DNA of 36,999 nucleotides from a candidate division WOR-3 bacterium. Lineage in GTDB: Bacteria > Hydrothermota > Tepidihabitantia > Tepidihabitantales > CAIPLT01. The translations under genes and the position numbers were made by a program. Of the stretch, positions 30,341 through 36,999 are shown piece after piece. The notes below the pieces were generated by a model that saw nothing but the letters and a program-made list of their open reading frames with translations, had not been told where the DNA came from and made no database searches. Numbering within the stretch: position 1 is the stretch's first letter; every line of letters begins with the position of its first letter. The stretch is from contig JBDRUV010000010.1 in assembly GCA_039801505.1 (NCBI GenBank), positions 1-36,999 of the forward strand, in the 5' to 3' direction.

Positions 30341-32494
30341 TTAGCTTATGCGTTCGGCCGTAAATACATTTTGAGTATCAAAACGCACCGTGATTTTTCT
30401 GATTCCGTAAGTTTGATCAAATTCCACATCGCTTTGATAGTTCTTTAACTTAAACTTCATAAAATATAGTCCGATATCGCCCGAGATTTTAATTGTCTCG
30501 TCAGAAACTGGACTTACTTGATAGCGAGCGCTAAACCTTAGTGGTCGGGTTAGAAAACTTAAGGCGTCGTGTAGGATTCTAATGCCTAGGGGTAAACTAC
30601 TAATAATCGGAGGTTGGTCAGTAAATGTATAACTTTTATGACGCACATAGCCAAAGCTTGGTAAGGCTAAGGCTAAGGCGTAAAGTGCACTATTGGGTCG
30701 TCCCTCAAATTTTAATAGATAAAAAATTCCGTGATTAACACTAAAATACGCTCGGGCGCGATTATTGGCTTCCAAATATAAATTGCCCCAAAAATCAAGC
30801 TTTACTTCCCAGGCTTCATAAAATATCTTGTGATTGGTGACAACCTTATATTTGAGCTGATTTCCTAAGCGAAAGTTAAGTAGTTCTTGAATATGCGCCT
30901 CAGCTGGAAAATTACTCACCACATCATTTTTCTGAGGACAGCCGATTTTTATCCAAACTAAACCTGGCTGATTAAGGGTGCGTTGCAAATAGTTAACAAT
31001 ATCGGCTCGAATCGTCCGAGAACCAACCTCAGGATTAGCTTGAATGTGAAAATGCAAATGGGGTATTAAGGAGCGACCAGAATTACCACAACTAGCTAAA
31101 ACCTGACCGGCCTTGACATATTCGCCTTCTCGAACCTTAATGCTATTATATTTCAGATGCGCTAGTAACGAGTAAACTCGTCCTTGATGTTCTAGAACAA
31201 TAAAATTACCCCAATTCTCTTTAGTATTAACGACCCCAATCGGATTGTCTAAAATCCAATCCACTATCTTAACTACAACACCATCAGCCGGCGCCAAGAC
31301 CGGCTTATCATACGCATAATAATCTTCTAATTCTTGACCGTTTCGGATAAATCTTCGACCTTCCTCATCAGCAACTTCAAAATCCCAGGCATATTGCCAG
31401 TCGTATCGATGAGTAATTTGGTCTTTATTACCCTGGCTTACAATCCATTCGCCATTAAATGGCAGATAAAATTGATAATAACTTTGACCTGGAAATCGGA
31501 CAATTCGAATATTATAATACTCTAAATTTTCTTCCGGGGAACCCATATAAAATGGGACGAGATACGGCCGAAGATTACTCAAACGATGCTTAAACCCATA
31601 AAGAATTACCAGCACCACTAAATTGAAAGGAATTGCCACAACCGGCAGTTGCCAAGGAGCTAGGAGATTTTGAAACCCTAAACCTAAGATCACACCTACG
31701 CCACTGGCGATAACGGCCAAGAGTACTGATGTAATATCAGGCACAAAAAACACCCCACCAATTGCAATGGCCGTTAATATCGTATTAAATCCCAAAAGCA
31801 TTAGTGCATCAGGATCGAAAACACCCAAGGCTCTTATAACGCCACAACCGACAAAAAATCCAACAAGGGAAAGCAATCCCATAATTCGAGAGTAGATTAG
31901 GATTACTAAAAACACCAAAGCACCGGCTACGAGATTTGGGCTAAAAATAATACTACCAAGACTTTTTAAATATAAATTAAGCCAAGTTGGTAAAAATTCC
32001 CCTCCGAGCACGAAAGTTTTAAAAGCCCATATTGGGTTAATTCGATTGTTATATATTGCTAATGTAAGAAGCAAAATTAAAACAAAGGGCAGACTCAAGA
32101 CAGGCAGTGCTAAATAATTCCGCAAAAAGTTTTCTAAACTAACCGAAAGAATCGTCACAAAAATCGCTAGTAAGAATATTATTCCCAAAAGTATTAAATA
32201 ATTGTCAAACGATCGACCAAGAAAATACCCAACTCCTAACGAAACTAATAAGCTATTAAAACTGTAATAACTAGTGGTTCGCACAAAATCAGTTAACCGT
32301 ACTAACCAAGCGAAAGCTAGCGAAATCAAAACTCCCCAAAGCCCAGAGAGTCCAACGACTGGATTAGTAAAACTGGCGAGCAAAATAATTAGCCCAAGAA
32401 GTGTGCTGTGGGTTGATTTTTTATTGTCGATAAAAAAAATTACCGAATAACTATCTAAGATTGAGCTTAAAATTATTGTAAGACAATTCTTCAC
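30341..32494 (-). CDS. Urea-transporter-like membrane domain fused to M23 (LytM) peptidase
   Basis: A 717-aa fusion. Residues about 25-305 form a urea-transporter-type channel with two homologous halves, each showing an FN-x-LL/IL segment (SYYSFNSLLVSLGVG near 76; LLGFNTILTAIAIGGVFF near 233) and an LP-V-x-PF segment (LALPVLSLPF near 128; LPVVAIPF near 283). Residues about 350-500 form an M23 zinc metallopeptidase: THRYDWQYAWDF with zinc ligands His362 and Asp371, His446 in LLAHL, and PHLHFH with His479 and His481, all intact. The last 210 residues are a beta-rich domain I do not recognise. M23 enzymes usually cut peptidoglycan cross-bridges or Gly/Lys peptides. The start overlaps the PLP decarboxylase stop (ATGA). 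The fusion implies that channel and peptidase act on one substrate. Confidence 0.85.
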   Translation of the reverse strand: MKNCLTIILSSILDSYSVIFFIDNKKSTHSTLLGLIILLASFTNPVVGLSGLWGVLISLAFAWLVRLTDFVRTTSYYSFNSLLVSLGVGYFLGRSFDNYLILLGIIFLLAIFVTILSVSLENFLRNYLALPVLSLPFVLILLLTLAIYNNRINPIWAFKTFVLGGEFLPTWLNLYLKSLGSIIFSPNLVAGALVFLVILIYSRIMGLLSLVGFFVGCGVIRALGVFDPDALMLLGFNTILTAIAIGGVFFVPDITSVLLAVIASGVGVILGLGFQNLLAPWQLPVVAIPFNLVVLVILYGFKHRLSNLRPYLVPFYMGSPEENLEYYNIRIVRFPGQSYYQFYLPFNGEWIVSQGNKDQITHRYDWQYAWDFEVADEEGRRFIRNGQELEDYYAYDKPVLAPADGVVVKIVDWILDNPIGVVNTKENWGNFIVLEHQGRVYSLLAHLKYNSIKVREGEYVKAGQVLASCGNSGRSLIPHLHFHIQANPEVGSRTIRADIVNYLQRTLNQPGLVWIKIGCPQKNDVVSNFPAEAHIQELLNFRLGNQLKYKVVTNHKIFYEAWEVKLDFWGNLYLEANNRARAYFSVNHGIFYLLKFEGRPNSALYALALALPSFGYVRHKSYTFTDQPPIISSLPLGIRILHDALSFLTRPLRFSARYQVSPVSDETIKISGDIGLYFMKFKLKNYQSDVEFDQTYGIRKITVRFDTQNVFTAERIS

Positions 32495-33849
32495 GACTTT
32501 TTATCTAATCGGAGTTGTCGAGGTAAAATTTCTGGTGCGGTAAGATATTCAAAATCTTCTTTCTTTCTTATTATCACGCTCTTTTTATCCGCGGTAATTA
32601 AAACCACGTTAGGTCGATATGTGATAAATTGCATCCACTGGGTCACATTATAAGCACCGACAGGATTAATAATAATTAAATCACCTGATGAAAGATTCGG
32701 GAAACGAATATATGGTCGCAACACATCAATATTCATACATAATGGACCATAAATAACGGTATTTTCTAAAGACCCGGAGAACGGCTGAGCTGGAATAAAA
32801 TTATGTTTATACCAATTGGCTGTGTATAGAAGATTAACGCCGGCATCAACAATTAATGCCCGGGTGCCATCTGGTAATACTTTATTGGCTAGAACCGTGG
32901 TAATTAAATATCCGGCCTCATCAATTAAGGCACGCCCGGTCTCTAAAATTAAGTGCGGTTGATTCTTATAAACAAATCGTGATTCGTTAAATGCTTCGCC
33001 AATTGCTTTGGCGTACTGACTAATATCCGGTGAACCGATATTACCAGGTAAATACTCTTCATACAAAGTATTACTTGACGCAAAACCGCCACCCAGGTCA
33101 ATAAAATTAATCTTGATATTAAAATTCTGTTCGATACTCTCGGCCAACCGCAAAAGTTTCGAGGCCGCTTGGTAATAAGCCCGAGGTTCTAACACAAATG
33201 TTCCAATATGCGTGTGAAGCCCAACAAGCTCTAATTTTTTTGCGGCGACGATACGCTGCACCACGCGATAAGCTTCGCCATTTTCATAATTAAAACCAAA
33301 TCGTAGCCACGGTGGATATATGCCGGTGTCCATATTCACCCGAATACCAACTTTGGGCTTAACTTTTAACTCTCGGGCCACTTCTTCTAGTAAGATAAGT
33401 TCATCAAAATTATCAAGATTAATTATTGCCGCATCGCGAATTGCTATGGCTAAATCGACTTTAGTTTTGGCTGGACCGTTAAATATAATTTTTTTACCCG
33501 GAATCCCCAAATGTCGCGCCCGTTCGTATTCCATACCACTGACAACTTCGGCCCAGGCGCCTTCTGAATGAAAAATCGCACAGATTGCTAAAAGATAATT
33601 TGTTTTATATGACCAGGCAAAAGTTATCTTAGGATAATGGAGCGAAAAAATCCGCTGGGCTTCCCGGAATTTGGTGCGAATGTGAGATTCAGAAAAAACA
33701 AAAAGAGGCGAACCATATTCTTTAACCAGTTCTTTTACCAAAAAGCCTTCGATTTGCTCTTGGTATTTAGGCACTGCCGCCACAAACTTACCACCTAGCC
33801 CAGCCGTCTTTCGCTCAATAAACGGTGCTTCGTATTTCTTTTTAGGCAT
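32491..33849 (-). CDS. Fold-type III PLP-dependent decarboxylase (DapDC/ODC-like)
   Basis: A 452-aa member of the LysA/ornithine decarboxylase superfamily. The PLP lysine is K82 in AWSYKTN. Other cofactor residues are visible: EVVSGMEYERARHLG near 101, LHTHIG at 211-216, DLGGGF at 251-256 (phosphate loop), and LETGR at 302-306. A C-terminal barrel bears GPLCMNIDVL near 368, with catalytic Cys371 from the second subunit, and GAYN near 398. In true DAP decarboxylases the Cys is followed by Glu-Ser (CES-x-D); here it is Met-Asn, so the substrate is probably not meso-DAP. It has a Shine-Dalgarno AGGAG and begins 13 nt after the ATP-grasp gene. It likely decarboxylates the amino acid used, or added, by the ATP-grasp ligase; this is inference. 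Confidence 0.85.
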   Translation of the reverse strand: MPKKKYEAPFIERKTAGLGGKFVAAVPKYQEQIEGFLVKELVKEYGSPLFVFSESHIRTKFREAQRIFSLHYPKITFAWSYKTNYLLAICAIFHSEGAWAEVVSGMEYERARHLGIPGKKIIFNGPAKTKVDLAIAIRDAAIINLDNFDELILLEEVARELKVKPKVGIRVNMDTGIYPPWLRFGFNYENGEAYRVVQRIVAAKKLELVGLHTHIGTFVLEPRAYYQAASKLLRLAESIEQNFNIKINFIDLGGGFASSNTLYEEYLPGNIGSPDISQYAKAIGEAFNESRFVYKNQPHLILETGRALIDEAGYLITTVLANKVLPDGTRALIVDAGVNLLYTANWYKHNFIPAQPFSGSLENTVIYGPLCMNIDVLRPYIRFPNLSSGDLIIINPVGAYNVTQWMQFITYRPNVVLITADKKSVIIRKKEDFEYLTAPEILPRQLRLDKKS

Positions 33850-33862
33850 AAATTACTCCTAC

Positions 33863-34933
33863 TTATGTGGATAAGTTATGTAACTCACCTTTAGCCATTA
33901 GTTCACCAATTTTATAAATATCAACTATTAAGTCTTCAGCATGTCTGATAAAGGCTGTACCGACTTTATAACTAGTATACGGCGAGACCTTCTCGCCTAA
34001 GGCTAATCGCACTAAAATTTCAGCAAAGTTCTGACCGGCACCGGATGATACACCAATCCAGGCTGGAAGACGGGGGTTGATTTCTAAAAGATAAAATTTC
34101 TCCTTAGATGTCTTTCTAATTTCTAACTCTAATGGACCACGCCACTTTAAGGCCTTCATAATCTTAGCTAAAAAACGATTCAATTTTAAATCTTTTATTA
34201 CCACACCGGCAAAACCTTTACCCTTTTCGGTGATTACTATTTTCTTTATTGGAATCATCGCTAAGGTTTTACCAGTGCCGTCGCCAATTGCGCAGACATT
34301 ATACTCCTCACCTGCTAGATATTCTTGAATTAATACGGGTGTCCCCCATTTCCAACTTACCAAATTAAAATATTTTATTAGTTCGTCAAAATTATTAGCA
34401 ATATAAGCCTCGTAAAATCGCCCTTTAACAACTACGGGAAATTTTAGTTCTTTTTCGATTTTACTTAATGCGACAATGTTATGAGCTTGGTAGGTTTTTG
34501 GAACCGGAATTTTAAAACGTCGCCCAAAATCATTTAGTTGAGTTTTATCCCGCATCAAAAATTGTTCTTTACTCGGTAAATACATTTTAATACCAAAATC
34601 TCGAAGCACATCGGCAATTGTAATATATAGCAAAAGTTCCGTATCTAGAGTGGGCATCAAGACATCAATTTTTGTGGTCTGTAAAATCTGCTTAATTCTT
34701 GTAAGCAAGACCTCAACGCCACTCGATGGAAATGGCATCAGATAAACTTCGTCAACTAAATCCCCCCGATAAATACCGGATTCATAGGCATCATAAACTA
34801 GCCCAATAATCTTACCAGAAAAACCGGCCCGACGTAATAATCGGGCAAATGGCACACCAGGCTGCGGATTCTCACCAGCATTAAGTCCAGAAACCGCAAT
34901 GACTAAATCTTTGGTCTTTAGAGAAAAAGGCAT
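33863..34933 (-). CDS. ATP-grasp ligase (carbamoyl-phosphate synthase-like branch)
   Basis: A 356-aa ATP-grasp enzyme. It has an N-terminal Rossmann-like pre-ATP domain (DLVIAVSGLNAGENPQPG, then a TKIDVLMPTLDTELLL segment near residue 88). The ATP-grasp fold has the ATP-binding lysine in FPVVVKGRFYEAY near 165, an EYLAGEEYNVCAIGDG segment near 200, and the magnesium site LELEIRKT...LLEINPRLPAW near 280-300. ATP-grasp ligases activate a carboxylate as acyl-phosphate and join it to an amine, thiol or other nucleophile. The specific ligation is unknown. The start codon shares its first base with the PqqD-like stop (TAATG), so the two proteins are made together. Confidence 0.88.
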   Translation of the reverse strand: MPFSLKTKDLVIAVSGLNAGENPQPGVPFARLLRRAGFSGKIIGLVYDAYESGIYRGDLVDEVYLMPFPSSGVEVLLTRIKQILQTTKIDVLMPTLDTELLLYITIADVLRDFGIKMYLPSKEQFLMRDKTQLNDFGRRFKIPVPKTYQAHNIVALSKIEKELKFPVVVKGRFYEAYIANNFDELIKYFNLVSWKWGTPVLIQEYLAGEEYNVCAIGDGTGKTLAMIPIKKIVITEKGKGFAGVVIKDLKLNRFLAKIMKALKWRGPLELEIRKTSKEKFYLLEINPRLPAWIGVSSGAGQNFAEILVRLALGEKVSPYTSYKVGTAFIRHAEDLIVDIYKIGELMAKGELHNLST

Positions 34934-35187
34934 TAGATTAAACCATATTGTTTGAGGCGTAATAAAAATGCCTCATAATCGCGCATAAGCTCTTCTAACG
35001 AAACGTCATAGTTTTCAAGAATGTATTTAAAAAGATCTTTTTCAGTAACCCCATCTCGAAGTCGAATAATTATTTCTCGGCCTAATTCGTTGGTGACATA
35101 ACTATTACCAGTTTGGGGATCAAATATAAAACCACTTTCACTTATTGCCAATTCTTTAAGGTAGGAGAAATTTTCTTTCTTAGCCAT
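34933..35187 (-). CDS. PqqD-like peptide-binding protein (RiPP recognition element type)
   Basis: An 84-aa PqqD-family protein: a beta part with FIFDPQTGNSYVTNELGREI (the LDP-x-TG-x-x-Y-x-LN motif), then IIIRLRDGVTEKDLFKYIL and a C-terminal helix YEAFLLRLKQYGLI. PqqD and related RREs hold a leader or substrate peptide and present it to a modifying enzyme. Here the partner encoded next, with a one-base overlap, is an ATP-grasp ligase rather than a radical SAM enzyme. The gene begins 2 nt after the small secreted protein's stop. No classical precursor-peptide gene was recognised next to it. Confidence 0.85.
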   Translation of the reverse strand: MAKKENFSYLKELAISESGFIFDPQTGNSYVTNELGREIIIRLRDGVTEKDLFKYILENYDVSLEELMRDYEAFLLRLKQYGLI

Positions 35188-35189
35188 AC

Positions 35190-35633
35190 TTACTTTGAAA
35201 GGATAGTGTTAAAATACCCAGTTTTGTAGAATATGAGCTCATCAAGGTGATAACCTCGAGTCTTACACCAATAGCAGTCTTTAATTTTGCAGTCTTTGGC
35301 TAAAATCTTCTTGCCCCAGAAGGCCAGTTCATACGAGTAGCGATAATTTTCAAGGTCTGGCTCAGTAAGAGAAATTGTGATGTTAAAACTGTCTTTCGGA
35401 CCTGGCTTGATCTCTTTAACTAAATGGTAACCATCTGCGATCGGGTCTTTGACTTCAGCTGAATATAACGAAACCCCCAGATAAACTGTGCGGTCGATAA
35501 GACCGTTCAGAATAATTTTCGTAGGCTTATTATTCTCATAGTCAAACGCGACCGTAAATGAGCTTTTTGAAAATCCTGCTGAAATAAAAAACAAAACACT
35601 AATTAAAGAAATTGATACTTTTTTGGCAATCAT
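35190..35633 (-). CDS. Small secreted protein, unknown function
   Basis: A 147-aa protein I do not recognise. A clear signal peptide (about residues 1-22, VSISLISVLFFISAGFS) is followed by a beta-rich body (alternating hydrophobic strands such as TVYLGVSLYSAEV) resembling a single immunoglobulin-like or beta-sandwich domain. Its only three Cys residues are clustered near the C-terminus (C115, C120, C123 in KDCKIKDCYWCK). They could bind metal, form a disulfide or be modified. It has a good Shine-Dalgarno sequence (AAAGGAG) and sits between the outer-membrane protein and the PqqD-like gene. It could be a partner or a substrate of the system; nothing in the sequence decides this. Confidence 0.65.
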   Translation of the reverse strand: MIAKKVSISLISVLFFISAGFSKSSFTVAFDYENNKPTKIILNGLIDRTVYLGVSLYSAEVKDPIADGYHLVKEIKPGPKDSFNITISLTEPDLENYRYSYELAFWGKKILAKDCKIKDCYWCKTRGYHLDELIFYKTGYFNTILSK

Positions 35634-35648
35634 TGTTCACTCCTTTAA

Positions 35649-36395
35649 TTATTTATTAGACTGATAACTGATACCCAACGTTGCATAGTTTATATTATAG
35701 GAACTGAAAATATCTCGGGTAATAGCTCCAACAAGAGAAATTTTACTAAAGAGCGCATATTTCAGGGTAATATTAAACTTCGCCTTTTGAATATCTGCAC
35801 GATTACAGACAATTATTTTCTGATCGTCGATAAAATGGTAAACTTTTCCGTAAAAACCACTAAACTCCACCAGCAAAGACTTAAGAATATTTAAGCCCAA
35901 TGTAGCTTTGCTGAGTAGATAATTGCTCTCGAGGTTTTTGGTATACCCTAAACCGAAGCTAACATGCGGTGAATACTTAATCCGCTGGAAGCTATAGTGA
36001 AATTCTGGGACTAGATGCGTAATCCAATATGTTTTTGGACCGGTGGCGAGATTTTGAGTGTATATTGTGTAGAAATACCCTAAGGTATACCAGGGATTAT
36101 ACCCGTAATAAGCTCGGGTTGCTACTACTAATCCGAAATTTTCTAGGTTATTTTCATAACCCAAAAGGGTAGTGCGGAAAAACACTTTATTAAATAAAGT
36201 TCTTCCCAACCCGGTTGAAAACAAATTCTGCCTAAAGCTTTCTTCTCGATAATGTTCATAACCCCAAAATAAATACTCGGTCTGTTCTGCAATAGTTAAG
36301 TATCCCGAAAATGTATAGCTTGAATATCCGCCATGACCTAAAGTAAAATAAGCTGCGGGTGAGATCGTGGCTGCGATAATTAGTACCAGAATCAT
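35649..36395 (-). CDS. Predicted outer-membrane beta-barrel protein
   Basis: A 248-aa protein with an N-terminal signal segment (about 1-16). It then shows many short alternating amphipathic strands rich in Tyr, Phe and Gly (TLGYFYTIYTQNLATGPKTY, HVSFGLGYTKN), ending in YATLGISYQSNK. This pattern fits a 10-12 strand outer-membrane barrel. There is no plug, POTRA or TonB box. No family could be assigned. Its start shares a base with the upstream Ig-repeat gene's stop (TAATG). It may be the outer-membrane component of the operon. Confidence 0.6.
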   Translation of the reverse strand: MILVLIIAATISPAAYFTLGHGGYSSYTFSGYLTIAEQTEYLFWGYEHYREESFRQNLFSTGLGRTLFNKVFFRTTLLGYENNLENFGLVVATRAYYGYNPWYTLGYFYTIYTQNLATGPKTYWITHLVPEFHYSFQRIKYSPHVSFGLGYTKNLESNYLLSKATLGLNILKSLLVEFSGFYGKVYHFIDDQKIIVCNRADIQKAKFNITLKYALFSKISLVGAITRDIFSSYNINYATLGISYQSNK

Positions 36396-36999
36396 TAGTT
36401 ATCAACCCTCACAGTTATTAAACTGTTCGCCCAATTGCCAGCAAAATCATAAGCTTTAGCCAGCAAGGTATGATAGTCATTAGTTAAGTTGGTGGTGTTC
36501 CATGAATAATTAAAAGGGGCACTGGAAACGGTTGCCACCGAATCCCCATCAACATAAAAAACAACCCTACTGACACCCCGATTATCCGAAACCTCACAGC
36601 GCACAAGGACCGTCCCCCAGACCCTACCCCAGGCGGCTGGGGACACGATGGCAATTTGCGGCGGCTCGCGGTCTGTGGTATCATTACTGACCCGCACAGT
36701 GATTAAGGCATTTGCCCAGTTACCGCCGACATCATAAGCCTTCGCCAAAATTGAATGATAATCGTCGCTAAAATTATTAGTATTCCACAGATATTCAAAC
36801 GGTGCGTCAAGATCACTGGCTAAGGAATCGCCATCAATATAAAATACTACCTTGCTCACGCCGATATTATCAGAGACCTGCGTCCGGATCAATACATTAC
36901 CGGATACTATGGACCAGGCAGCTGGGGAAATAATTCCAATCAGTGGCGGTTCGGTGTCAGTAGTATCAACCAACATCACGGAGACCAAATTCGAAAGCC
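36395..36999 (-). CDS. Tandem Ig-like repeat surface/secreted protein (5' end missing)
   Basis: The frame is open to the window edge, so only the C-terminal 200 residues are visible. They contain two repeats with a 95-residue period, each beginning EPP-x-I-x-I-x-SPAAW, running through VSDN-x-GVS-x-VVFY-x-DGDS and AK-AYD-x-x-GNWAN, and ending ITVRV. The first residues at the edge (LSNLVSVMLVDTTDT) match the end of a preceding repeat, so at least three existed. Such Ig-like repeats (Big_7 type) occur as stalks in exported adhesins and enzymes. A TTG at 36988 is an artefact of the cut edge, not a start. The last repeat ends the protein with no sorting domain. The stop overlaps the next gene's start. 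Confidence 0.75.
   Translation of the reverse strand, partial: LSNLVSVMLVDTTDTEPPLIGIISPAAWSIVSGNVLIRTQVSDNIGVSKVVFYIDGDSLASDLDAPFEYLWNTNNFSDDYHSILAKAYDVGGNWANALITVRVSNDTTDREPPQIAIVSPAAWGRVWGTVLVRCEVSDNRGVSRVVFYVDGDSVATVSSAPFNYSWNTTNLTNDYHTLLAKAYDFAGNWANSLITVRVDN

Follow-up and report, generated by a model that had tools for sequence, protein, structure and literature searches.

A conserved four-gene bacterial cassette joins a PqqD-like protein, an ATP-grasp ligase, and a fold-III decarboxylase to a urea-channel/M23 peptidase fusion

What might be made by an operon whose parts each defy the usual expectation: a peptide-binder-like protein with no linked peptide, a LysA look-alike that appears not to be LysA, and a urea-channel fold joined to a cell-wall-type peptidase? 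These genes close the window, the whole 36,999-nt stretch of DNA that was analysed, which makes up the whole of contig G000:C10 in a 1.94-Mb genome (96% complete). Seven tightly packed minus-strand open reading frames (ORFs) occupy its last 6.7 kb (36997-30341), three of their junctions being overlaps (1, 1, and 4 nt) and three being short gaps (2, 13, and 15 nt). A preliminary description of this DNA had reported seven overlapping or closely spaced minus-strand genes, and the layout is confirmed, with no overlap above 4 nt and no gap above 15 nt. From the 5′ end of the operon, the genes are as follows.

36395..36997, minus strand: Ig-repeat protein with two Big_7 domains (Pfam), 5′ end open at the contig end; accessory
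35649..36395, minus strand: outer-membrane β-barrel, 1-nt overlap with the Ig gene; accessory
35190..35633, minus strand: small secreted all-β protein, 15-nt gap to the barrel gene; accessory
34933..35187, minus strand: core gene 1, PqqD/RRE-like protein, 84 aa (PqqD PF05402, 1.6e-10), 2-nt gap to the secreted-protein gene
33863..34933, minus strand: core gene 2, ATP-grasp ligase of the ATPgrasp_Ter/carbamoyl-phosphate-synthase-like branch, 356 aa (ATPgrasp_Ter, 6e-13), 1-nt overlap with the PqqD-like gene
32491..33849, minus strand: core gene 3, fold-III (alanine-racemase-fold) PLP decarboxylase, 452 aa, 13-nt gap to the ATP-grasp gene
30341..32494, minus strand: core gene 4, UT/M23 fusion, 717 aa, GTG start, 4-nt overlap with the decarboxylase gene; UT channel at residues ~10-330, M23 at ~343-490, then a C-terminal domain without a recognised fold

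The decarboxylase matches the Pfam families Orn_Arg_deC_N (2e-32) and a C-terminal sheet domain (4e-12), and the fusion matches UT (2e-48) and Peptidase_M23 (4e-17); neither the barrel nor the small secreted protein has a family match in Pfam or NCBIfam. Since the window is a whole contig, the operon is truncated at its 5′ end. In relatives, the region immediately ahead of the Ig gene encodes proteins bearing type IX secretion sorting tails (L035:4402-6033 and L034:10823-13021), one of them with 13 LVIVD repeats; the operon may therefore begin beyond the contig end.

An alignment of the decarboxylase was scanned against ~85,000 species genomes, yielding at least 569 confirmed relatives, of which the best 80 were analysed. 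By record title, these best 80 of at least 569 belong to the Bacteroidota, Cloacimonadota, Riflebacteria, Ignavibacteria, Chlorobiota, Myxococcota, Marinimicrobia, and one deltaproteobacterium; most carriers are metagenome bins, and individual phylum labels may therefore be wrong. The ligase gene precedes the decarboxylase in 79 of these 80 best-matching loci and the UT-M23 fusion follows it in 79, the exception in each case falling at a contig end. The PqqD-like gene is present in 77 (65 called and 12 recovered from upstream frames), with one probable true absence (L050). Order and strand are the same in 223 of 223 adjacent core pairs from the best 80 of at least 569 loci, with median gaps between core neighbours of 0, 32, and 9 nt. 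Because the loci were picked by decarboxylase similarity only, this linkage was unselected. The adjacency of the PqqD-like, ATP-grasp, and decarboxylase genes described earlier for the window thus recurs in related genomes across phyla.

A less biased sample was provided by 296 evenly drawn Bacteroidota genomes. The cassette-type decarboxylase was found in 27 of them (~9%), set apart by an E-value gap (1e-169 versus 1e-50), and in all 27 it is adjoined by both the ligase and the UT-M23 fusion. Among 33 decarboxylase-negative Bacteroidota genomes, the fusion was found in none (27/27 versus 0/33, Fisher p 1e-17) and the search for the ligase gave one weak ligase-like match. The PqqD-like gene lies upstream in 27 of the 27 positives, with E-values beyond any in the negative genomes, so that in the 60 Bacteroidota genomes examined the fusion occurs only alongside the other three genes. 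This is the co-occurrence for which the preliminary description had called. Across 71 loci, pairwise distances of ligase, decarboxylase, and UT-M23 fusion correlate at 0.87-0.93, as expected if the unit is inherited together. The association is far beyond chance, and the cassette is a real conserved pathway whose core is four of the seven genes: PqqD-like, ATP-grasp, decarboxylase, and UT-M23. Kept intact in so many species, it must make something useful, and its cultured carriers (Algoriphagus, Draconibacterium, Mariniradius, Rhodonellum, and Prolixibacter) make the system testable. We found no described pathway with this gene set in the open-access literature, in agreement with the earlier statement that none with exactly this set was known.

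In the decarboxylase tree, the clade of the window is placed next to the Cloacimonadota. A search of 147 genomes of the window's phylum detected full-length or near full-length UT-M23 fusions in about a dozen, with the PqqD-like, ATP-grasp, and decarboxylase genes directly upstream wherever the contig reaches; two carriers (G096 and G043) are without cassette neighbours because the fusion lies at a contig edge. Ten of the 147 genomes, overlapping almost entirely with these carriers, encode the cassette-type decarboxylase, and the phylum decarboxylase profile separates cassette enzymes (E ≤1e-162) from ordinary relatives (E ≥1e-50). Two further contigs (G034:C120 and G040:C22) end in a decarboxylase and a short N-terminal piece of UT, being cassettes broken by assembly. 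Another contig (G294:C1) has two equal-scoring cassette matches, one at each end, which probably reflect circular-chromosome overlap rather than duplication.

The decarboxylase, which is easily misannotated as LysA, bears on the nature of the substrate. Its closest solved protein is the N-citrylornithine decarboxylase 7kh2 (E 6e-60), followed by LysA (8.5e-43), and BtrK ranks below 7kh2 among its solved relatives. In N-citrylornithine decarboxylase, the specificity-helix Arg of LysA and the acidic residue after the catalytic Cys have given way to Thr/Tyr and Met; the FigC residues fitting the amide-linked substrate are T327, Y331, M355, and Y383, and docking predicts H357 and R387 as citrate contacts (PMC7857480). 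The cassette enzyme has Thr343, Tyr347, Met372, and Tyr400 at the positions of the four FigC pocket residues, invariant in 86 of 86, whereas the citrate readers are replaced by Ile374 and Gln404, again in 86 of 86. With the Thr/Tyr/Met/Tyr pocket kept and the citrate readers lost, the substrate would be expected to carry an acylated, uncharged distal amine, the acyl part being something other than citrate. Judged by these residues, the decarboxylase is FslC/FigC-like and not LysA, although its FslC model score of 238 bits is below the cut-off of 500.

With LysA the enzyme shares its fold, the PLP lysine, and the catalytic cysteine. If it were the LysA of lysine synthesis, the operon would be a lysine/cell-wall housekeeping cluster, as might be suggested by a match to the LysA model (E 5e-67) and by the window's genome, in which it is the sole LysA relative and there is no canonical LysA. 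The match of about 226 bits is nevertheless below the curated cut-off of 297.9, and the DAP-reading Arg and acidic residue of LysA are Thr343 and Met372 in 86 of 86. Most of the cassette genomes checked (20 of 24) also encode a separate LysA-like enzyme, which exceeds the curated cut-off in 16 of them. The lone relative in the window's genome has a context in its phylum: the decarboxylase profile, by which LysA-like enzymes are picked up as well, finds nothing in 79 of 147 genomes there, and lack of LysA therefore seems to be common. On the basis of the residues, the cut-off, and the additional LysA-like enzymes, we rejected the lysine reading, which we consider very improbable.

Ligation of an amino acid followed by its decarboxylation has precedents in FigA/FigC and BtrI/BtrK (PMC7857480); for the assembled system, we found none in the open-access literature. 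The rhizoferrin pathway (FslA/FigA with FslC/FigC) likewise ligates an amino acid first and then decarboxylates it with the closest solved homolog of the cassette enzyme, sharing its four pocket residues. It differs in the citrate readers, in using an NIS synthetase where the cassette has an ATP-grasp enzyme, and in having an MFS exporter where the cassette has a PqqD-like protein and the UT-M23 fusion. Butirosin biosynthesis (BtrJ/BtrI/BtrK) shares a small protein of ~85 residues and a PLP decarboxylase of fold III whose amino-acid substrate is tethered, and BtrJ, like the cassette ligase, is an ATP-grasp enzyme. BtrI, however, belongs to a carrier-protein family, whereas the small protein of the cassette is PqqD/RRE-like (PF05402); there are no aminoglycoside genes here, and FslC is matched better than BtrK. 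The cassette belongs to neither the rhizoferrin nor the butirosin pathway, from which it departs in ligase class, in carrier class, and at the citrate contacts.

A different precedent is raised by the 84-aa protein, which shares the PF05402 domain with PqqD and lasso-peptide RRE proteins. Its profile finds the discrete lasso-peptide RRE TbiB1 as the best solved relative (E 1.2e-9), and it has no match to any carrier-protein family in Pfam or NCBIfam. The earlier placing of this protein among PqqD/RRE-like proteins is upheld to that extent. A RiPP pathway could then be envisaged in which the RRE binds the leader of an unlinked precursor, the ATP-grasp enzyme and decarboxylase modify the peptide, the M23 domain cuts off the leader, and the UT domain exports the product. 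Fused peptidase-transporters recall leader-cleaving exporters, which would be in keeping with such a pathway. MccE, a decarboxylase of this fold, has a peptide as its substrate during the maturation of microcin C (PMC7857480). Yet the 781 small ORFs around the best 80 of at least 569 cassettes include no family present in more than two loci, so the conserved small peptide gene for which the preliminary description had proposed a search was not found nearby; any peptide bound by the PqqD-like protein would be encoded elsewhere, and a standard RiPP cluster is unsupported. Neither are there matching maturation enzymes, since the recurrent neighbours in the same 80 best loci are only TPR, barrel, and AraC-type genes, with no radical SAM, YcaO, or ABC exporter gene. 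The best matches of the ATP-grasp enzyme are carbamoyl-phosphate-synthase-like and not graspetide ligases, with no close relative among solved structures, and a peptide would not fit through a pore of urea size. We therefore regard a RiPP pathway as unlikely. Assignment to the graspetides or another known RiPP class was separately rejected, there being no precursor and no graspetide-type match, and the gene set being missing from the text of a graspetide survey.

The fourth core protein has a complete UT domain, as in urea channels (dvUT, 3k3f), and the complete catalytic set of M23 endopeptidases, here fused in one protein. The M23 zinc and catalytic residues H362, D371, H446, H479, and H481 are intact in all members covering them. 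In the UT domain, the slot Phe, Leu, and Asn residues are kept, E187 is changed to Ala/Ser, T130 to Ser, and T294 to Ser/Ala, and Q24 is kept in 66 of 86 and altered in the window; these positions are presumably the functional residues of the dvUT urea channel. Both domains of the urea channel/M23 fusion described earlier are thus confirmed, but its selectivity residues are altered, and because the pore residues are partly changed, transport is something that we only infer. The gene is not fused everywhere: at G175:C1:2246024-2248182, the UT and M23 parts are in two separate reading frames.

On which side of the membrane does the M23 domain lie? The N-terminus of the fusion has a charge of +2, the middle loop −1, and the C-terminal linker +4, the linker being positively charged in 95% of 82 sequences, and there is no membrane span after the UT C-terminal linker. 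The middle loop of UT proteins is on the outer side (PMC4357013). Together, the charge pattern and the usual UT orientation, with both ends inside, would make the M23 domain cytoplasmic, a puzzling position that we consider somewhat probable and one at variance with the earlier suggestion of handling at the envelope. An outward position keeps some probability because M23 domains related to this one but mounted on other anchors seem, by eye, to face outward. Two of these, from the same phylum (L014:1033-2067 and L018:1393-2388), have multi-span anchors without UT and look periplasmic, and together with the intact M23 active site they are consistent with peptidoglycan remodelling, in which the enzymes would make an amine or amino-acid wall adduct and a UT-anchored M23 would act on periplasmic peptidoglycan. 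An HtrA/DegP-like PDZ protease and a D-Ala-D-Ala ligase directly downstream of one cassette (L037:877-3287, in G041) point the same way. The predicted cytoplasmic placement of M23 argues against such remodelling, as does the lack of any Mur- or Fem-type gene in the core, and we judge it improbable.

The reading that we prefer, and to which we give about even credence, is that the four core genes form a ligate-then-decarboxylate biosynthesis module with transport through a UT pore. The ATP-grasp enzyme would form an amide between a carboxylate and an amino acid, the latter probably a diamino acid reacting through its side-chain amine. In the manner of an RRE or a carrier, the PqqD-like protein may hold one of the two partners or present it to the enzymes. 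The FslC/BtrK-type decarboxylase would then strip the α-carboxylate, giving an acylated (poly)amine or amine-tailed conjugate. The small product would be carried over the inner membrane by the UT-like pore, possibly by uptake instead of export; the fused M23 zinc peptidase may trim or free a conjugate, and barrel and TPR partners could handle the product at the outer membrane. In this scheme, the gene set, its linkage, the catalytic residues, and the absence of LysA's substrate readers are observed, whereas the substrates, the part played by the PqqD-like protein, transport and its direction, and the product are inferred. The earlier proposal of a conjugate made inside and handled at the envelope is supported insofar as outer-membrane partners recur, but not in its peptide form, as no linked precursor was found; M23, for its part, is predicted to be cytoplasmic. 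In a more specific and rather doubtful version of the module, the conjugate would be built and decarboxylated on the PqqD-like protein in the cytoplasm, M23 at the cytoplasmic pore mouth would cut it, and the small product would exit straight through the UT-fold pore. Such a peptidase-gated exporter on a urea-channel chassis would, if true, be a new kind of biosynthesis-export coupling.

Are the three envelope genes upstream of the core part of the same system, as was first thought? The Ig, barrel, and secreted genes were found beside the cassette in only three other genomes (G095, G137, and G138, all of the window's phylum) and are a lineage-specific add-on, not core. Homologs of the Ig-repeat protein begin with a lipobox (LSTAC or LLTGC), so it is probably a lipoprotein. 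The secreted protein has a signal peptide by eye, a conserved C-x4-C-x2-C motif, and an all-β model (pLDDT 79) with no significant fold match in the PDB. Considered as a modified substrate, this 147-aa protein was rejected, since it lies beside only three further cassettes and is hence not general. The AlphaFold model of the barrel has about 14 strands at moderate confidence (pLDDT 70) and resembles the porin-type folds NanC/Omp33/OmpG/KdgM in the PDB (E 1e-5 to 1e-4).

Outer-membrane partners are more widespread than the trio itself. Among the best 80 of at least 569 relatives, a protein of ~445 aa, whose N-terminus looks TPR-like by eye and whose remainder is barrel-like, usually follows the fusion in Bacteroidota (55 loci), and a TPR protein of ~208 aa is encoded downstream of the fusion in 67 loci. 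The profile of the Bacteroidota TPR-barrel family (fam5) finds the window's barrel (E 4e-9), and this homology and the porin-type model suggest that an outer-membrane barrel is a recurrent partner whose position differs. The link to envelope proteins noted at the outset holds in this broader form, membrane and outer-membrane partners recurring with the core. An AraC-type regulator is encoded ahead of 24 of the best 80 of at least 569 loci.
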